From: Pyxicephalus adspersus
Lineage: Eukaryota > Chordata > Amphibia > Anura > Pyxicephalidae
DNA length: 64,000 nt
Assembly (NCBI RefSeq): GCF_032062135.1
Contig: NC_092859.1
Span: 50,209,629 to 50,273,628, forward strand
Direction of reading: 5' to 3'
In this document: positions 3,675 through 61,533 of the stretch, in pieces
How positions within the stretch are numbered: the first letter of the stretch is position 1
Layout of the letters: every line of letters starts with the position of its first letter
Position numbers and translations under genes: made by a program
Notes under the pieces: model-generated
The model's input: the letters and a program-made list of their open reading frames with translations, nothing else
Told to the model about the DNA's origin: nothing
Database searches by the model: none

Positions 3675-5935
3675 TTTACAATAATTACACTGGTCAACAA
3701 ACATTTTCTTGCCAAACAGAATAAAGTCATTTAAGGTTATGTTTGATGCACAGATTCCAAATATGGTATTGGTTTTGCTGGATTCTCTCCAGTTTTTGAA
3801 ATAAAGACCAAAATAATAACCTCATAGAAAACTAATGAAACATGAAAATGAAGCAAAATTTAACTAAATATGCTAAATACTAAAAAGTATTTTTTAAATA
3901 CTTAATGTCAATATATTCTATATTCAGTATATTTACAGAACTAATCACAAATAAGTAATTGAAAAACTCTGTTTGTATGTTTCCTTTTATGCTGATGATC
4001 AGGACAATCACGTTGAAGGCTCCAGCAGTAGTCTGCCATCATGTATCTCTCATCTGCCCTGATACCTTTCTTCCATCACCTTTATATCTTGATAGAACCT
4101 CTTACCTTGTTCTTCACTGAAATCGCCAAGATTTTCTGGAAATTTTGCAAATGGCCAAGGAGATAATGTACCTTTATGCTCATAGTAACACCCAAATTTT
4201 TAAAGTTTAAGTATCAGTTCTTCAAAATTAGTTTTGTACCAGTTCTTCATAATTTTGTGCTTTATGGTTACCCAAGAAGTGACCACAGGTGTGTGTAGGG
4301 CGTGCATGACATAGCTCTGCCGGGCTGAAGCTTCAGTATCAGTCGTGTAACGTGTGAAATTTGAATAATTTATCAGTTTCTGAATCTGGGGTCCATCAAA
4401 GATTCCAGCTTTTAATTTCTCAGTACTCAATCCAGGGAAGAATCTACAAAAGTATTTGAAGCAATCACTGTCCTTGTTCAGAGCTCTAACAAATAGCTTA
4501 ATTAATCCCAACTTTATATGTAGTGGAGGGAGAATGATTTTTTCTTTGTCAACCAATGGCTTGTTAATGATGTTCGCTGCACCTTTTTTCATGTTTTCCC
4601 TTGGAGACCTTGAAGTCACTTTTTTCCAGTAATCCTGCTTTGCTCTACTTTCCCACAAGCAAATGAAACATGCGTACTTTGTGTATCCACTTTGCTGTCC
4701 AAGTAGGAAGTTCACCATTTTCAAATCAACACAAATGGACTATTGGTGTTCATGATAGCAAAGCTTTTGTAAGACCATTTTGATATTTTCATATTCTTCT
4801 TTAAGTTTTGTTGAGTGACCAACTGGAATTGATGCATAGCAGTTGCCATTATGCAGTAAAACAGATTTCAAACTTTCTAGTGGAAAGGTCTATGAAAAGC
4901 CGCCAGTCTTCTGCTCAGTATTCTGGTACTCCCAGATGGGCTAGTAGCCCAGGAAAGAGACAACAGTACACAAAGTCTCCATCTCACTGAAATATGGTAA
5001 GAGTGTCACCTCTTTTGTCCTATAAACTGTTATTTTAACTTCCGGTCTCAGACATTTCTTTTCTTTTATCCTGGATGCTAAAAGTTCAGATGCTTGTTTT
5101 GAGAGATATAGGTTACATATTAAATCATTGAGCTCTTGTGGGGAAAACTGCTGGTTTGATGAAACACTTCCTTTTTTTCACTTCCACTGCTAGCTTCTGC
5201 ATTACACTCCAAACCCTGTATATCCTCCATGTCGGATACAGGAATATCAGGGAGTGTACTGAACACTGGTACGAGAACATCAGCACCATGCGGCACAGGT
5301 CGTCTTGCTGATTCCCAATCAGGGTACTCCCACTTGTTTTTCTTGTAATTATTGAAACCTCTTACATTCACAGCACAAAAATAACAATCATTGTGATGAT
5401 TTTCGTGCTCTCACCATACCATAGGTACACCAAATTTCAAACTTTTTAGTTTTCAATTTTTCCACTGACGTAGACACTCTACACAAGTTTTGCAAACCAT
5501 ATGGAGAGGCCAATCTTGGTCCTCCAGTTTAATACTAAAATATCCAAGATATGCTTGTTTCACACATTCTGTAATGTTTCTTCTCTTCTTCTGTTTTTGC
5601 TGAGAATCTTCACCACAAATGTAGCAAAATACATTAAGGGCATTTCAACAACTTCTTCTTGAAGAACTCATATTTCTGTAAAAAAAGAAAATGTATGAAT
5701 AAAAAGAAGGCAAATGAAAGTTTCATGAAAATAATGCTACATTTAATATATAAAATGCAAAACATTGATGTAAATATAGATAGATAATAATATGCTGTGT
5801 TAACATTTGTTGTTAGTAAAATTGTTTATTCCGATTCCTGTATCACAAGAACCAGAGCCAATTCAGAGAAACTGTCATTTCTGGATTCAGCAGAACTGAA
5901 ATACATTAAATATATTGAGAAATCCTTGGTAAGTG
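3675..5935 (-). pseudogene. Copy B of the dispersed uncharacterised zinc-binding protein family (longest A-C type copy)
   Basis: Read on the minus strand. A likely start ATG is at 5671, directly downstream of a pyrimidine tract ending in acag that looks like a 3' splice site (5674-5691). The N-terminal module has CYICGEDSQQKQ, CVKQAYLGYFSIKLEDQD and CKTCVECLRQWKN. Next come ARRPVPHGADVLVPV and DIPVSDMEDIQG (5120-5371). The central block (4200-4724) has GYTKYACFICLWESR and LPPLHIKLGL. The C-terminal block (3990-4140) has PENLGDFSEEQGKRFYQDI and KVMEERYQGR. A stop at codon 9, a small deletion in the DQDKYWAPH region and several frame changes show decay. Non-coding sequence on both sides is shared with copy C, so the repeated unit is larger than the coding part. 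The acidic and histidine residues of SEEQGxRFxQDI could be part of a transposase-like active site; that is only a guess. Confidence 0.75.
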
Positions 5936-54739: not shown

Positions 54740-55160
54740 GGAGCTTTACTATGCTGACAGCTCTGCTCCCCTGATCGCTCCTGCAGCCCTAGAGGAGCTG
54801 TGACATGTATTCTGTATGTGTAATACATGTCACAGCTCCTCTAGGGCTACGGGAGCGATTAGGGGAGCAGAGTTGTCAGCATAGTAAAGCTCCGCTGATT
54901 GCTCTGCTCCCTGATTGGCTGAGGAAAGGGAAATCCTGATGATGCTTGAGCTGTCATCAGGGTTTCCTATTTCTCAGCCAATCACAGAGCAGTACAGGTA
55001 ATGAATGGAGATACATATCTCCATTCAACCTCTATTGCCCTGGTATTGCTTGTGGTTACAGCTAATTGAAGGCACCTGCTTTCAATTAGCTGTGACCGCA
55101 AAGTTCCCACGGTCCGGGAATCCCACAATGACATTATGATTCATAATGTCATTGTCGGAT
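54740..55160. repeat. Array of consecutive hairpins (inverted-repeat cassette)
   Basis: Successive inverted repeats, non-overlapping and in order: (1) 54740-54811 with 54821-54893 (ggagctttactatgctgaca / tgtcagcatagtaaagctcc, about 72-base arms); (2) about 54901-54944 with 54953-54993 (gattggctgag / ctcagccaatc); (3) 55002-55027 (tgaatggagata / atatctccattca); (4) 55049-55070 with 55081-55102 (acagctaattgaa / ttcaattagctgt); (5) 55104-55120 (ttccc / gggaa); (6) 55126-55139 with 55141-55154 (caatgacattatga / tcataatgtcattg). The first arm may extend into the gap. No reading frame of interest. Confidence 0.85.
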
Positions 55161-55539: not shown

Positions 55540-55822
55540 TACCTATTTACTACAGAAAAGGTCAACACCCGGGACAACACGTAAGAATTTTCTACCTCAG
55601 GACGCTTGGAATGAAAGACAGGTTGGGGACCAGGCCAAGAAGGACCAGAGGGCTTGTGAGACTTCCTCCGTGGACACTCGGCGCCCATTACAGTGCTGGA
55701 GATGCCAGGAGTGGGGCCATGTCGCTGCCAGATGCCCTTTACCCAGTGAGGCGATGGAGTGTGGAGTGGCCCGTCAGATGTTCCTGTACGCCCAGCCGCT
55801 ACATACCATGGATACTGAGTGA
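55540..55822 (+). other. Gag-like segment with CCHC zinc knuckle
   Basis: CWRCQEWGHVAARC at 55694-55735 is a textbook CX2CX4HX4C knuckle, followed by EAMECGVARQMFLYAQPL, a layout seen after the knuckle in Gag proteins of vertebrate Gypsy-type LTR elements (knuckle then MxC..R). The frame is open upstream at least to about 55545 and ends at a TGA (55820-55822), beyond which the same frame carries on. No protease, reverse transcriptase or LTR was found nearby. A cellular CCHC protein cannot be excluded. Confidence 0.6.
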
Positions 55823-55834
55823 TTTGCAGAAAAG

Positions 55835-56299
55835 TTGACATCTGTTAAAACGGTTAATGATCAAGAGACAGAATGTGCCCCCTTATCAGCTGAAGAGAAA
55901 ATTACCAATCTTGTTTTGGATGCAGCTTTTGATAAATCAGGTGAAGATTTACAAAATTCTGTCAAAGTGTCTGAAGAAACTGCTCCTGCACCAACTAAAG
56001 TTGAGACTGCAGAAAGTACCACTGTGGAAGATGTCCATGTGTTGACAGAGATTAAAGGTGATGAATGTGTTCCTGTGTTGACTGGGGAAAAGTTTCCTTT
56101 TATTGAAGTCCAAGCTAAAGGATGGGATCCTGTTGTAGCTGAGACAAATGAACAGCCTGAAGGGCAGGAAAAAGAGGCTGAGCCAATGGAGGCTGAAGAG
56201 GGAGATGGTGAATCTGAAGTTGAAGAGAAGAAGAGAAAGAAGAGAAAGAGGATAAGGAAGAAGTTGGCAATCTGCAATGGGGCTTGTCCTACCAGTAAA
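55835..56299 (+). other. Unidentified acidic segment with a basic tail (part of the chimera)
   Basis: About 150 codons rich in Glu, Val, Thr and Lys, for example AEEKITNLVLDAAFDKSGED and EPMEAEEGDGESEVEE, ending in the basic cluster KKRKKRKRIRKK (about 56228-56263), which could act as a nuclear localisation signal. It is in the same frame as the Gag knuckle, separated by a single stop. I do not recognise the source gene. Confidence 0.5.
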
Positions 56300-56319
56300 A
56301 TAGCGAGCACAATAGTGCC

Positions 56320-56541
56320 ATATCTCATTTCACACAGTGTACTGAAGTCCTAGAGAAGAGAGTAGCTCTACTTTCAGAACAGTTGGAAAAAGCTGCAAAT
56401 GAATCCACTGAGAAAATTCTGAAAGAAATGGATGAATTGAAAGGGCTTCTTCCAGACATCCTGGAGAAAATGGAAGTGTCCAAAGAAGCCCATGAAAGTA
56501 TCTGTGTTTCTAAAAAGGTGCGGGAAGAGTTTAGTAAATAA
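56320..56541 (+). other. Unidentified coiled-coil segment (part of the chimera)
   Basis: CTEVLEKRVALLSEQLEKAA, then STEKILKEMDELKGLLPDIL and EKMEVSKEAHES show heptad-like leucine spacing typical of a coiled coil. A stop (56539-56541) follows VREEFSK, and the same frame continues into the CTCF linker. Source gene not recognised. Confidence 0.5.
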
Positions 56542-56559
56542 AGTGAAGTAAAGATGGAG

Positions 56560-56934
56560 GAAGGTGTTGCTACATCAGTGGATGTGAAAGCTGAAAAAGT
56601 GATGGGAAACATGAAGCCTCCAAAAATTAAAAAGAAATGTGTAAAGAAAACTTGCTAATGTGAGCTGTGCAGCTCTACTTGTCCCAGACACTCAAATATT
56701 GATCGTCCTATGCAGAGGCACGTGAGAACTCGGTCTGGGAGAAGCTTTATGAATGCTACTTTTGTCATGTTCAGTTTACGCAGGGTGGAACCAGGAAAAT
56801 GCACATACTGCAAAAGCCTACTAAAAATGTAGCCAAAGTTCACTGTTTCCATTGTGATACAGTCTTCCATGACCGTTATCCCCCCATTCAACATCAGAAG
56901 TCTCCCAAAAATGAAAATCGATTTAAATGTGATT
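56560..56934 (+). other. CTCF: CTCF-derived segment (linker and zinc fingers, internally shortened)
   Basis: CTCF is the 11-zinc-finger insulator protein of vertebrate nuclei. The linker AEKVMGNMKPPKIKKKCVKK is followed by the first half of finger 1 ([16 protein letters not shown]). It then jumps to the helix end of finger 5 (RHVRTRSG), finger 6 ([20 protein letters not shown], read after a frame change at 56739), the first half of finger 7 (HCFHCDTV), the second half of finger 8 ([13 protein letters not shown]) and the start of finger 9 (RFKCD). The last zinc-ligand His of fingers 6 and 8 is Pro. Stop at 56656. The match to CTCF rather than a generic finger protein rests on the linker and on QKxTxNVAKxHCxHCDTV. 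Confidence 0.85.
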
Positions 56935-57612
56935 GGGGTGTGGCAGAGAAAAGTGTGAAGACCATCACCACAGTGGCTGGTAAGGGTGCCATGTCAATAT
57001 TACAGAAACTGGAACCTCAGTATACTGTAGCAAACAACATTGCTGGCATTGGACTAGATAAAATTGAGAGGCTGCCTGTTTTGTATCAGCCAAGTGACAA
57101 GATTGTAGCCAATGGCTCAGAGGCTCTGGCCTGTGCTAAAGACGCAGTGATTTAAAGTAAACCTGGAGTGGTTAATAAGACCAAGGAAGCTGTGTATGAC
57201 AGTGTGGAGATGACTAAATCTGTTGTAAATGGAAGTATCAACACTGTGCTTGGGAGCCATGCGCTGCCCAAAATGTGCAGCGGTGTTGATACTGCTCTTA
57301 CAAAGTCTGAAACTCTTGAACAATACCTACCACCAACTGATGAGTAACTAGAAAAGCAGGAGGCACAAACAGAGGGGTTTGAGGTGTCGAATGACAAAGC
57401 AAGCTGCTATGTTCGCTTGGGATCACTTTCTACCAAGGCATGCAAACATGCTGACCATCAAGCATTGACAAGATTCAGGGATGCGAAATGCAGAAATCAG
57501 GAGGCCATTGCTCAGCCACAGTCTACAGTTGACCTGATTGAATATGCCAGGAAGAACATAAATGATGCCAATCAGAAGATAGATGATGCATAGGAGAGGC
57601 TCTACAAGAAAA
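56935..57612 (+). other. PLIN2: PLIN2 (perilipin-2)-derived segment
   Basis: Perilipin-2 coats lipid droplets. Recognisable blocks in order: [110 protein letters not shown] and STVDLIEYARKNINDANQKI, ending near ERLYKK. This is the PAT-domain rear plus the central repeat region; the N-terminus and the C-terminal four-helix bundle are absent. Stops at 57153, 57345 and 57591 are the only frame defects. PLIN3 is a possible alternative source but PLIN2 fits better. Confidence 0.85.
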
Positions 57613-57875
57613 AGGGAGAAACCTGGATGAAAGCAGAAAGTGCGGTCCAAGCAAGAAAGTTCAACCAAGTAGTAAAGATAAAGCAAGAACTGGGTGAAGA
57701 GTTAACAAAGAAGGAAATTGACATTCTGAGTGATGCCTGCACTAAGCTGAAAGAGCAGAAGTTACTAACAAAGGAGAAGGAAGAACTGCTGGAGCTGAAG
57801 GATGATGTTCAGGAGTACAGTGAGGATCTGGAAAAAACTGATTTAAAGAAAAGACGCTTTGCCGAAGTCGCTTAA
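57613..57875 (+). other. LETM1: LETM1-derived segment
   Basis: LETM1 is an inner-mitochondrial-membrane protein of cation homeostasis. [40 protein letters not shown] and EYSEDLEK reproduce its C-terminal coiled-coil region nearly residue for residue. The preceding [19 protein letters not shown] (57618-57675) is not recognised and may be yet another source. The frame is open from 57594 to the stop at 57873 and is the same frame as the PLIN2 part. Confidence 0.8.
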
Positions 57876-58382
57876 AATTACCAGAGACAAAGTGTTCTAG
57901 AGCACTGGGTCTTTAAAAAGAAAATTGTTTTGTTGGAAGATTCCATCCTCTTTTATGATATGCTGAACTTCTTTGATTATAATTTGTATCCTTCTAGTGT
58001 TAGATTGTATGTGATTCCTGGAGTTTATGTCTGTTTATTATCATTATTATTATTATTATTTTTTGTAGTTTAGGAGATTTTTGGGGGCAAAATGAATGCT
58101 TGTTTTTATGACTTTGTTGCAGTAACCTGTCATATAGAAGGATTTCTCTAGTATTCTGAGTTGCCTATTTCTGTGTTAGGAGACAGAGCATAAGCAGTAG
58201 TAGCCTGCAGTGTGTAATGTCTTGTTTCATCTGTTGGGCTTGAGAGCTGAAACTTTGCAGAGATAGTTGCATCAATCAGCAGGTTTCCTTTAAATTAAGA
58301 CGGCCAGTTTGTAATCTCATGTACTTAAATTGTCTATTAATAGTTTAAAGGGTGAAATATGGTAAATAAGTATTTTTTGTGC
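57876..58382. other. Possible 3' untranslated part of the chimera
   Basis: Non-coding, T-rich, with an (ATT)n run at about 58038-58060. It shows no clear poly-A tail. No gene recognised. Confidence 0.35.
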
Positions 58383-58516
58383 TTCTTCCAGGTTTGCCAA
58401 AAATAGGTTAGTAATTTGTGGTGCCCTTTACTCCCAATAGCAGTACCCAAACACTATAGATACATATCAATGTCAAAGGTAAAATAAATGTGCCCCTTAA
58501 CATCCTCAGAACTTTG
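58383..58516 (+). repeat. Direct repeat, first copy
   Basis: ttcttccaggtttgccaaaa followed by ataggttagtaatttgtggtg through to acatcctcagaact; it recurs at 59113-59247 with about 90 percent identity by eye. Confidence 0.85.
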
Positions 58517-59112: not shown

Positions 59113-59247
59113 TCTTCTTCCAGGTTTGCCAAAAATAGGTTAGTAATTTGTGGTGCCCTTTACTCCCGAATGCAGTACCCAAACACTATAGATACATATT
59201 ACTGTCAAAGGTAGGATAAATGTGCCCTTAACATCCTCAGAACTATT
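59113..59247 (+). repeat. Direct repeat, second copy
   Basis: Same sequence as 58383-58516 in the same orientation, about 730 bases downstream. Confidence 0.85.
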
Positions 59248-59849: not shown

Positions 59850-61533
59850 ACATGTACACTTCAGAAGTGTTTCAGGCACTTGCTTTTGCTTTTGTGGCGC
59901 TCGTCTGTCTCCCGTTGCAGAAACCAGCAGTAGTCGTTCATCATGTGTTGGGGTTGCACCGGCCTTGATATCTTGTTTCCAACAGAAATGTCTTGGTGGA
60001 ACATCTCCCCTTGTTCATCACTCACATCACCCAAATTTTGTGGGAAGAAGTCCAGGTGGGAATGTAAGAAATAATTTTAAGTGACATTCGGCAGCCAAGT
60101 TAATGGTATGCCGTTTGCATGTTGTTCACAAGCTCAGCATGGTTTTCAGCTCGCTGGTTTCCCAGAAAGTTTTGTGCAACTAGCACAAATGAGTCCGAAG
60201 CAGCAAGTTCAAGTGGGTTAAGTTTGTCTCTGAATGTGGCACCCTGCATCAAATTTTGGATTTGGCGACCAACAAAAATGCTTGCTTTCAGTTTAGCATC
60301 TGTTATAACTTTTCCAAACTTGTCCTTCTGAAAACCCATACCATCACAATCCGTTGCAATGACAAAGTTTTCCATTATTCCAAGTTTATTAGGAAGTGGC
60401 AGAAGGTAAACTTTCTGTGGATCAACGGATGATTTATGCTTCATATTGTACTGGCCAACAGTGTGTTCGGGGCTAGGTGGCCATTCTTTCACTTTGTAAT
60501 GGTTGCTGTCATCACGACTGTTCCATAGGCACAGAAAGCACATATATTTTGTATATCCTGATTGCAGGTCAAGAAGGAGTGCCACCACCTCCAGGTCACC
60601 ACAAACATTCCACTTGTTCCACATCAATTTCAAAATGATGGATTTCATTTTTCAAATCCACCATGGATTTGTATGTCTCTTTCATTCCTTCGGCATGAGC
60701 AAGAGGAAAAGAAGGTTTTTCGTTACCTTTATGCAGCAATATAGCTTTGAAACTTGCTTTGCTCGAGTCTATGAACAATCTCAACTGCTCTGGTATATAT
60801 TCACAACCTAACTCCTTTAAAAGACCACTCATGTCGGTACAGCTGCAAATGTTGTTTTACAGCTTGTAATACCCTGCAAACTTTGTGTGACGATCACGAA
60901 AGTATGAAGTTGAAGGTCCTTTCTGTAGCAAATTCCACTCCTTTAATCTGGAGGCTAACAGTTCAGACTTTTGACAAAGACAGGTCCTTTCCTAGATCAC
61001 CTAAATATGATTGGGTTATAAAATGTGGCTTACGCTCTTCAAATTGGGGTTTATAACATTCATTAACATCAACATCATCCTCCTGTTCCTCATCCGACAT
61101 GTCACTCACTGTCAGTAACAACAGATGTAGGAGGGACTGGCACTGGATTCTCTGCATTATGTCTGGTACTGACTTCAGAGCAGATTCACAATCAGGATAG
61201 ACGATTTTTTACTTAGTCTTCTTCGAAAACCCAACAATTTTCGAAGAAGTAGCAGTCCGAGTAATGGTCTTTTAGCTCACGCCAAACCATAGGCACAGCA
61301 AAAGGCATTTTATTCCTTTTCTTATTCAACCAGTGTGTTAGGCCAACGTAACACACCTGACAGCAGATATGAGGTGCCCAGCTTTTATCCTGATCTCCAA
61401 TTTCACATCCAAAGTGATACTTGTAAGCAAATCTTACCCTCTTGGTTAGGTTCTTGCGTTGATCACACGCGGTATATTTGCCACAAATGTAGCAAAAATT
61501 GTCCGGTTTATTAACACAGCTGTGCCTACTCAT
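59850..61533 (-). pseudogene. Copy D of the uncharacterised zinc-binding protein family (divergent, near full length)
   Basis: Minus strand; the start ATG is at 61533, 5' of which lies a plausible core promoter. The N-terminal module (61533-61213) has CYICGKYTACDQRK, CEIGDQDKSWAPHICCQVC, LTHWLNKKRNKMPFAVPMVW and DCYFF. An acidic linker (MSDEEQEDDVDVNE) follows at about 61100-61060. Then comes EQLRLFIDSSKASFKAILLH (60832-60700), GDLEVVALLLDLQSGYTKYM with CFLCLWNSRDD, LPLPNKLGIMENF, IFVGRQIQNLM and AQNFLGNQRAEN (60648-60100). The C-terminal block (about 60050-59870) has PQNLGDVSDEQGEMFHQDI and HMMNDYCWFLQRE. Frameshifts near 61210, 60965 and 60600 and between later blocks break it. It is clearly a different subfamily from copies A-C. 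The conserved GDL...GYTKYxCFLCLW and DEQGExFHQDI blocks hint at a catalytic core, possibly a transposase; unproven. Confidence 0.75.

Follow-up and report, generated by a model that had tools for sequence, protein, structure and literature searches.

Spliced pieces of at least five host genes between the LTRs of a dispersed retrotransposon family in the frog Pyxicephalus adspersus

The pick-up of several cellular genes by one LTR element is best known from maize, and retroelement-driven exon shuffling is, to our knowledge, known mainly from the maize element Bs1 and from endogenous retroviruses (ERVs) that captured single genes. For Bs1, three transductions from three genes are described (PMC13317346, extract), and transduction by LTR elements is termed occasional in a review (PMC6431247, extract). 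In amphibians, a SCAN domain is reported for over half of the frog Gmr elements (PMC4131045, extract). A search of titles and the beginnings of abstracts, in which few subscription journals were covered, yielded no paper on the element described here or on multi-gene capture by Gmr1 or by an amphibian element.

Here we analysed a window of 64,000 nucleotides from the 1.44-Gb genome of P. adspersus (G000:C2:50209629-50273628), in which an initial annotation had noticed a chimeric reading frame joining a Gag zinc knuckle to pieces of CTCF, PLIN2 and LETM1. The chimera occupies window positions 55550-57935, its limits being set by homology with other copies, and represents one degenerate copy, without LTRs, of a family of LTR retrotransposons dispersed in the genome. 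Very probably, this family is non-autonomous and akin to Gmr1-type Ty3/Gypsy elements, host cDNA having stepwise replaced its protease-integrase-reverse transcriptase (RT) region through serial template switching, with the products mobilised in trans.

The window copy and its dispersed family

Read frame by frame, the path 55550-57935 is intron-free and frame-broken. The knuckle and the CTCF, PLIN2 and LETM1 pieces named in the initial annotation were borne out by Pfam, the PDB and this genome's LETM1 locus, on the plus strand and in the order given there. A Gag remnant, recognised by Pfam and copy comparison, comes first (55550-55822), with its 5' homology limit set by copies L012 and L025; its CCHC zinc knuckle (55688-55738) matches Pfam zf-CCHC at 0.0028 and 18.1 bits, under the cut-off of 20.8. 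Next comes a NASP cDNA piece in more than one frame (55862-56541; PDB, copy comparison), consisting of an acidic region and then the last TPR/coil. An acidic/basic segment and a coiled coil had been noticed at this place; both are present, not as separate segments but as parts of one further gene, NASP. The coil matches PDB 7v1k at 2.7e-10, and the counterpart in copy L029 matches NASP at 3.5e-43. The window copy has lost the TPR block, which L029 and L031 retain. For the acidic part alone (55823-56350), a search of 5.8 billion proteins gave 120 candidates and none at 0.001, and the PDB gave no matches.

The CTCF cDNA piece (56554-56940; PDB) contains the linker and zinc fingers, with what is probably finger 1 joined to later ones, and the fingers inside 56703-56940 match PDB 5yel at 1.3e-25. 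Placed inside CTCF is a PLIN2 cDNA piece covering approximately human residues 48-285 (56934-57608; Pfam, gene comparison), which Pfam Perilipin matches in three frame pieces from 56934 to 57590 (1.5e-18, 2.1e-14 and 5.4e-17). By copy comparison, 57609-57692 consists of the CTCF tail beyond the last finger, in another frame (57609-57690), and a short stretch of element filler. The LETM1 cDNA piece (57693-57836; gene comparison) is made up of one complete exon spliced to 12-13 nt from the start of the following one; window 57692-57825 is 95.6% identical over 137 columns to an exon of the LETM1 locus, and the piece gave no matches in the PDB. Thus, in the stretch earlier read as LETM1, the exon at 57692-57825 stands, and the first third is CTCF tail, since 57609-57690 is that tail out of frame. 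The copy ends in element sequence common to siblings (57837-57935; copy comparison); where a copy has a 3' LTR, a G-rich tract stands between the corresponding sequence and that LTR.

Elsewhere in the window, a 114-nt direct repeat (58382-58495 and 59114-59227, 94% identical, 732 bp apart) lies just downstream of the element copy, and a near-perfect palindrome with 72-nt arms (54740-54893, 94%) lies upstream of it, bordering an assembly gap. The minus-strand open frames 60103-60651 and 4203-4739 share 39% identity over 147 columns (2e-29), contain no Pfam families above cut-off, and resemble copies of a repeat-encoded protein.

Further copies with the same junctions, for which the initial annotation had proposed a genome-wide search, were found. 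With 56958-57875 (PLIN2 to LETM1) as query, at least 52 matches in the genome correspond to at least 40 places including the window, a lower bound, as matches were merged by eye and 40 of 186 candidates were scored. Among the matches scored, the main ones are 77-91% identical, and at least 15 of the 40 scored places (window included) span at least 880 of the 918 bases in a single match. The junctions recur at many loci and are therefore not assembly joins; both an assembly join and a host chimeric gene are ruled out by dispersed copies with stops and LTRs.

We fetched 20 of the 39 other places (L009-L028), and homology between these copies reaches beyond the remains of the window copy both upstream and downstream. 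Between its two LTRs, L022 holds every piece except the zinc knuckle, which other copies retain. All of it runs in one sense: 5' LTR, putative primer site, Gag capsid, TOP1, nucleolin-like piece, NASP, CTCF, PLIN2, CTCF tail, LETM1, G-rich tract and 3' LTR. In translated searches of the 20 copies, PLIN2 was present in all, CTCF in 19, NASP in 18, LETM1 in 15, the Gag capsid in 14, TOP1 in 11, the nucleolin-like piece in nine and the knuckle in four; by DNA comparison, the CTCF tail was found in 20 of 20 and LETM1 in 19 of 20. The order is collinear in 19 copies, and in L027 two adjacent matches overlap. The label Gag capsid is based on location ahead of the knuckle and the protease in relatives; Pfam gave no match for this piece, which may be SCAN-like, and the nucleolin-like piece is a putative assignment named for a resemblance. 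In L010, Gag capsid and TOP1 lie within one open frame (PDB 9.3e-26).

Direct terminal repeats form LTR pairs in 11 of the 20 fetched copies, and a clear pair was not seen in the other nine. The K2P distance between paired LTRs is 0.064-0.133, in a set without L014 and L028, in which no pair was found. The LTRs begin with TGTGA or TGTAA and end in TCACA (TGTGACAG or TGTAACAG, and GATCTCACA) and fall into two subfamilies; a query with one LTR gave 1318 candidates for further places, 40 of them scored. Both outer ends were located in six copies, four of which are flanked by perfect 4-bp target duplications (L011 ACTG, L012 CCGC, L022 CTGG, L023 AACC), and no target duplication was found for L015 and L025. 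A putative primer site, TGGTGGAG.ATGYGGGC, lies 2 bases past the 5' LTR in five copies, with close variants in five more; in L012 it may match the tRNA-Ala 3' end. At the LTR starts examined, a G-rich run forming the purine tract stands ahead of the 3' LTR, interrupted in L021. The LTRs that the initial annotation had proposed to look for around the chimera itself are seen in these other copies, and a search for the family LTR within the window found none in the window copy.

Donor genes, junctions and order of capture

The spliced pieces between the LTRs come from at least five unrelated cellular genes, TOP1, NASP, CTCF, PLIN2 and LETM1; the segments are thus not the match of one single host gene. 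Because introns are absent at the PLIN2, CTCF and LETM1 junctions compared, and TOP1 is continuous over several exons, the source of the pieces is spliced mRNA. The PLIN2 gene (C3:43638474-43642961) gives separate exon matches, and the window copy is continuous over human residues 48-285. One of its exons (L050) is 86% identical to window 57100-57351, with a match that stops at the splice sites, and both flanking introns are absent in the window copy, as is the 3' intron of exon L054. A CTCF intron on contig C6555 (L038) is precisely absent from element L039. The LETM1 locus has its LETM1_RBD exons at C3:140740542-140742677 and, downstream, the exon matched by the window; in the copies, the end of this exon, TACAGTGAG, is joined to the start of the next, GATCTGGAAGAAA.

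A genome search for TOP1 gave 67 matches (72 of 72 candidates scored), 18 in three TOP1-type genes (C3, C5 and C9) and 49 in 31 further places, merged by eye, nine of which are elements known from fetched loci. The region is spread over six exon matches in the TOP1 gene at C3:15553458-15555727; the longest element match (C13:7842210, in L026) contains query positions 19-206 inside 549 bp, for which the C3 gene needs five exons. A search of the genome with SHNi-TPR for the NASP gene gave three matches (21 of 21 candidates scored), at C3:68914649 (L029), C14:39732326 (L030) and C11:20379104 (L031), all of which lie inside elements and were rejected as the NASP gene. The CTCF matches L039 and L040 were rejected as genes as well, both being sibling elements.

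At the CTCF-PLIN2 junction, GGTGTG is common to both donors, and there are two extra G, which a simple template switch leaves unexplained. Of 22 sequences, 17 yielded the junction anchor, as TTGGGGTGTGGCAG or with slight variation; in L025, PLIN2 is joined at a different CTCF point. The right end of LETM1 shows short homology (ATCTGGAAGAAA versus ATCTAGAGAAA), and L039 has an 85-bp deletion between two TAAAACATTC repeats.

Elements with fewer pieces bear on the order in which these were acquired. L040 and L042 contain Gag, knuckle, aspartic protease and then CTCF, and PLIN2 and LETM1 were looked for in both without being found. In the window family, PLIN2 interrupts CTCF, the CTCF tail lying 3' of PLIN2. 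Copy L026 has PLIN2 and the CTCF tail, then CTGGG joined to AAAGAGGACAAAGG as in L039, where other copies hold the LETM1 piece, which is absent from L026 and from the siblings L039 and L040. From the CTCF-only siblings L040 and L042, and from L026 with PLIN2 and a pre-LETM1 site, we infer that CTCF was captured before PLIN2, and PLIN2 before LETM1. The CTCF of L040 starts at a later finger than that of the window family, so that L040 is a sibling and not a proven direct ancestor.

L030 and L031 contain Gag, NASP with TPRs and CTCF, and no PLIN2 or LETM1 was found within the 3 kb read. In L031, about 830 bp (2043-2924) missing from the related L030 overlap an open frame of 164 aa (1961-2452), for which Pfam gave no family above cut-off and the PDB no match; this extra sequence is perhaps another captured gene or an insertion.

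Gag-Pol relatives and a second family

A query with the protease piece of L040 gave at least 151 matches (552 candidates, 150 scored), and eight of these loci were cut out and read in 3.4-kb pieces. Three of them (L044, L046 and L047) have LTR, leader or gag stretches in common with the L012 element (approximately 71-87%) and continue into protease and integrase. In Pfam searches the relatives show a knuckle and a protease, both under cut-off, and the integrase core is above cut-off in L045, L046 and L048, about 500 bp past the protease region. In L044, an integrase C-terminal domain is followed by RT (Ty3 Gag-Pol, 4e-16), Ty3 being the best match of this fragment. An integrase that precedes RT is reported as characteristic of Gmr1 and as present in Copia too (PMC8220671, extract). 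The domain order and the RT match of its relatives thus suggest that the window family is related to Gmr1-type Ty3/Gypsy elements.

About 25 PLIN2 matches in the genome are limited to approximately residues 119-185; 20 are without stop, some within long open frames. For the second family, 40 of 266 candidates were scored, giving a minimum of 40 places that are 87-95% alike along an 801-bp piece; at least 34 of the places cover at least 784 of the 801 bases. Its copy L049 on C10 reads CTCF, PLIN2 and an RT end in a single frame, and just upstream, L051 has NASP in the same frame, with the TPR-skipping deletion of the window copy (together C10:50491900-50493600). The frame amounts to 1216 aa, protease match included, and was read except for 687 bp between NASP and protease. 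The NASP-derived part of L051, on the reverse strand, contains several tandem repeats of about 25 aa, QKVxEEF-like. Copy L053 keeps an open frame of 267 aa (Perilipin 1.8e-17), and L052 has one stop and a frameshift in RT. The RT match of this family consists of the last 46 positions of RVT_1, with E values under the cut-off (0.018 in L053, 0.0021 in L049); with the RT core seemingly missing, the second family is probably non-autonomous too.

In the window family, we counted differences by codon position over seven segments, in columns represented by at least 10 of the 21 sequences and with the phase taken from the window copy. Differences common to at least three copies fall on positions 1, 2 and 3 in numbers of 46, 41 and 44, and singletons in numbers of 257, 251 and 224. 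No codon-position bias was seen, so coding constraint on this cargo was rejected, and with differences spread evenly the host pieces look like passenger sequence. Among three copies only of the second family, the counts are 15/12/16, 15/10/17 and 9/8/15, which amounts to no more than a slight excess at the third position; compared with the exon of the PLIN2 gene, the three copies give 10/9/13, 5/7/11 and 2/5/11, which the gene's own constraint could explain. It seems doubtful that the NASP, CTCF and PLIN2 repeat-region pieces of this family are translated within a protease-to-RT polyprotein and useful to the element; if they are, they may steer particles to lipid surfaces (PLIN2) or chromatin (NASP, CTCF).

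Origin of the composite and comparison with known systems

That retroelement machinery built and inserted the chimera, much as in Bs1, had been proposed in the initial annotation and is supported by LTR pairs in 11 of 20 copies, 4-bp duplications in four of six, missing introns and recurring junctions. NASP, TOP1, the multicopy non-autonomous nature, the stepwise build and the relatives with a Gmr1-type Ty3/Gypsy layout had been overlooked. Host mRNAs would have been packaged along with element RNA, and the RT would have switched template onto a host mRNA and back at short homologies. Since the products would retain their LTRs, the primer site, the packaging region and the purine tract, the composite elements could be multiplied in trans by the Gag-Pol of the relatives. 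This account builds on features observed in the genome: LTRs, target duplications, a Gag remnant, host pieces that are spliced and all in one sense, junctions common to many copies, forms with fewer pieces, and Gag-Pol relatives with a similar LTR, leader or gag. Counted against it are the window copy without LTR, the nine copies without a clear pair, the lack of duplications at L015 and L025, and the extra G at the CTCF-PLIN2 junction.

The left end of LETM1 coincides, to within 1-2 nt, with an exon border and could also be explained by splicing, if an element in or reading into host genes gave rise to chimeric cis- or trans-spliced transcripts that were then reverse transcribed. Other ends argue against such a course and make it unlikely: TOP1 ends at about query positions 18 and 206, inside the exon matches 2-40 and 191-246, PLIN2 starts inside the exon matching 8-76, and the right end of LETM1 is 12-13 nt into an exon. 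Moreover, the PLIN2, TOP1 and LETM1 genes on C3 are separated by tens of megabases, and a CTCF exon pair is on contig C6555, so that many separate trans-splicing events would be needed. A pile of LINE-made processed pseudogenes or nested insertions with no LTR vehicle might account for the window copy alone, LTR-less and made of spliced cDNA. It deserves next to no credence given the same order at dispersed places, the LTR pairs and 4-bp duplications of the copies, and a 3' limit of the window copy at which no poly(A) was seen by eye. Some ERVs also make 4-bp duplications. Single host-gene captures have moreover been published for crocodilian ERVs (KIT ligand, nectin3; PMC4299795, extract), and yet it is very improbable that the vehicle is a host-gene-carrying ERV instead of a retrotransposon, since in the relatives the integrase is ahead of RT and the RT fragment best matches Ty3.

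Under the preferred reading, serial template switching by a non-autonomous retrotransposon, P. adspersus offers an animal genome with surviving intermediates in which an LTR element would have gathered cDNA of unrelated genes one by one and spread the composite, and retroelement-driven exon shuffling can be read stepwise, with order, breakpoints and donors. The copies also scatter CTCF, NASP, TOP1 and PLIN2 look-alikes, by which gene annotation can be misled.

Like maize Bs1, the family is an LTR element with segments of several cellular genes; it differs in being hosted by an animal, in the number of donors (at least five) and of places (at least 40), in having forms that reveal the order of capture, and in its Gmr1-type relatives. 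These relatives share with Gmr1-type Ty3/Gypsy elements the zinc knuckle, protease and integrase before RT, whereas the window family has host cDNA where they hold protease, integrase and RT. The crocodilian ERVs are also vertebrate LTR elements with captured host mRNA, but each carries one gene, with ORFs reported under purifying selection (PMC4299795, extract), whereas here there are several fragments and no codon-position bias. Large retrotransposon derivatives (LARDs) are likewise non-autonomous, with foreign sequence between LTRs moved in trans (PMC6431247, extract); here, in contrast, what lies between the LTRs can be identified as spliced mRNA from named genes.
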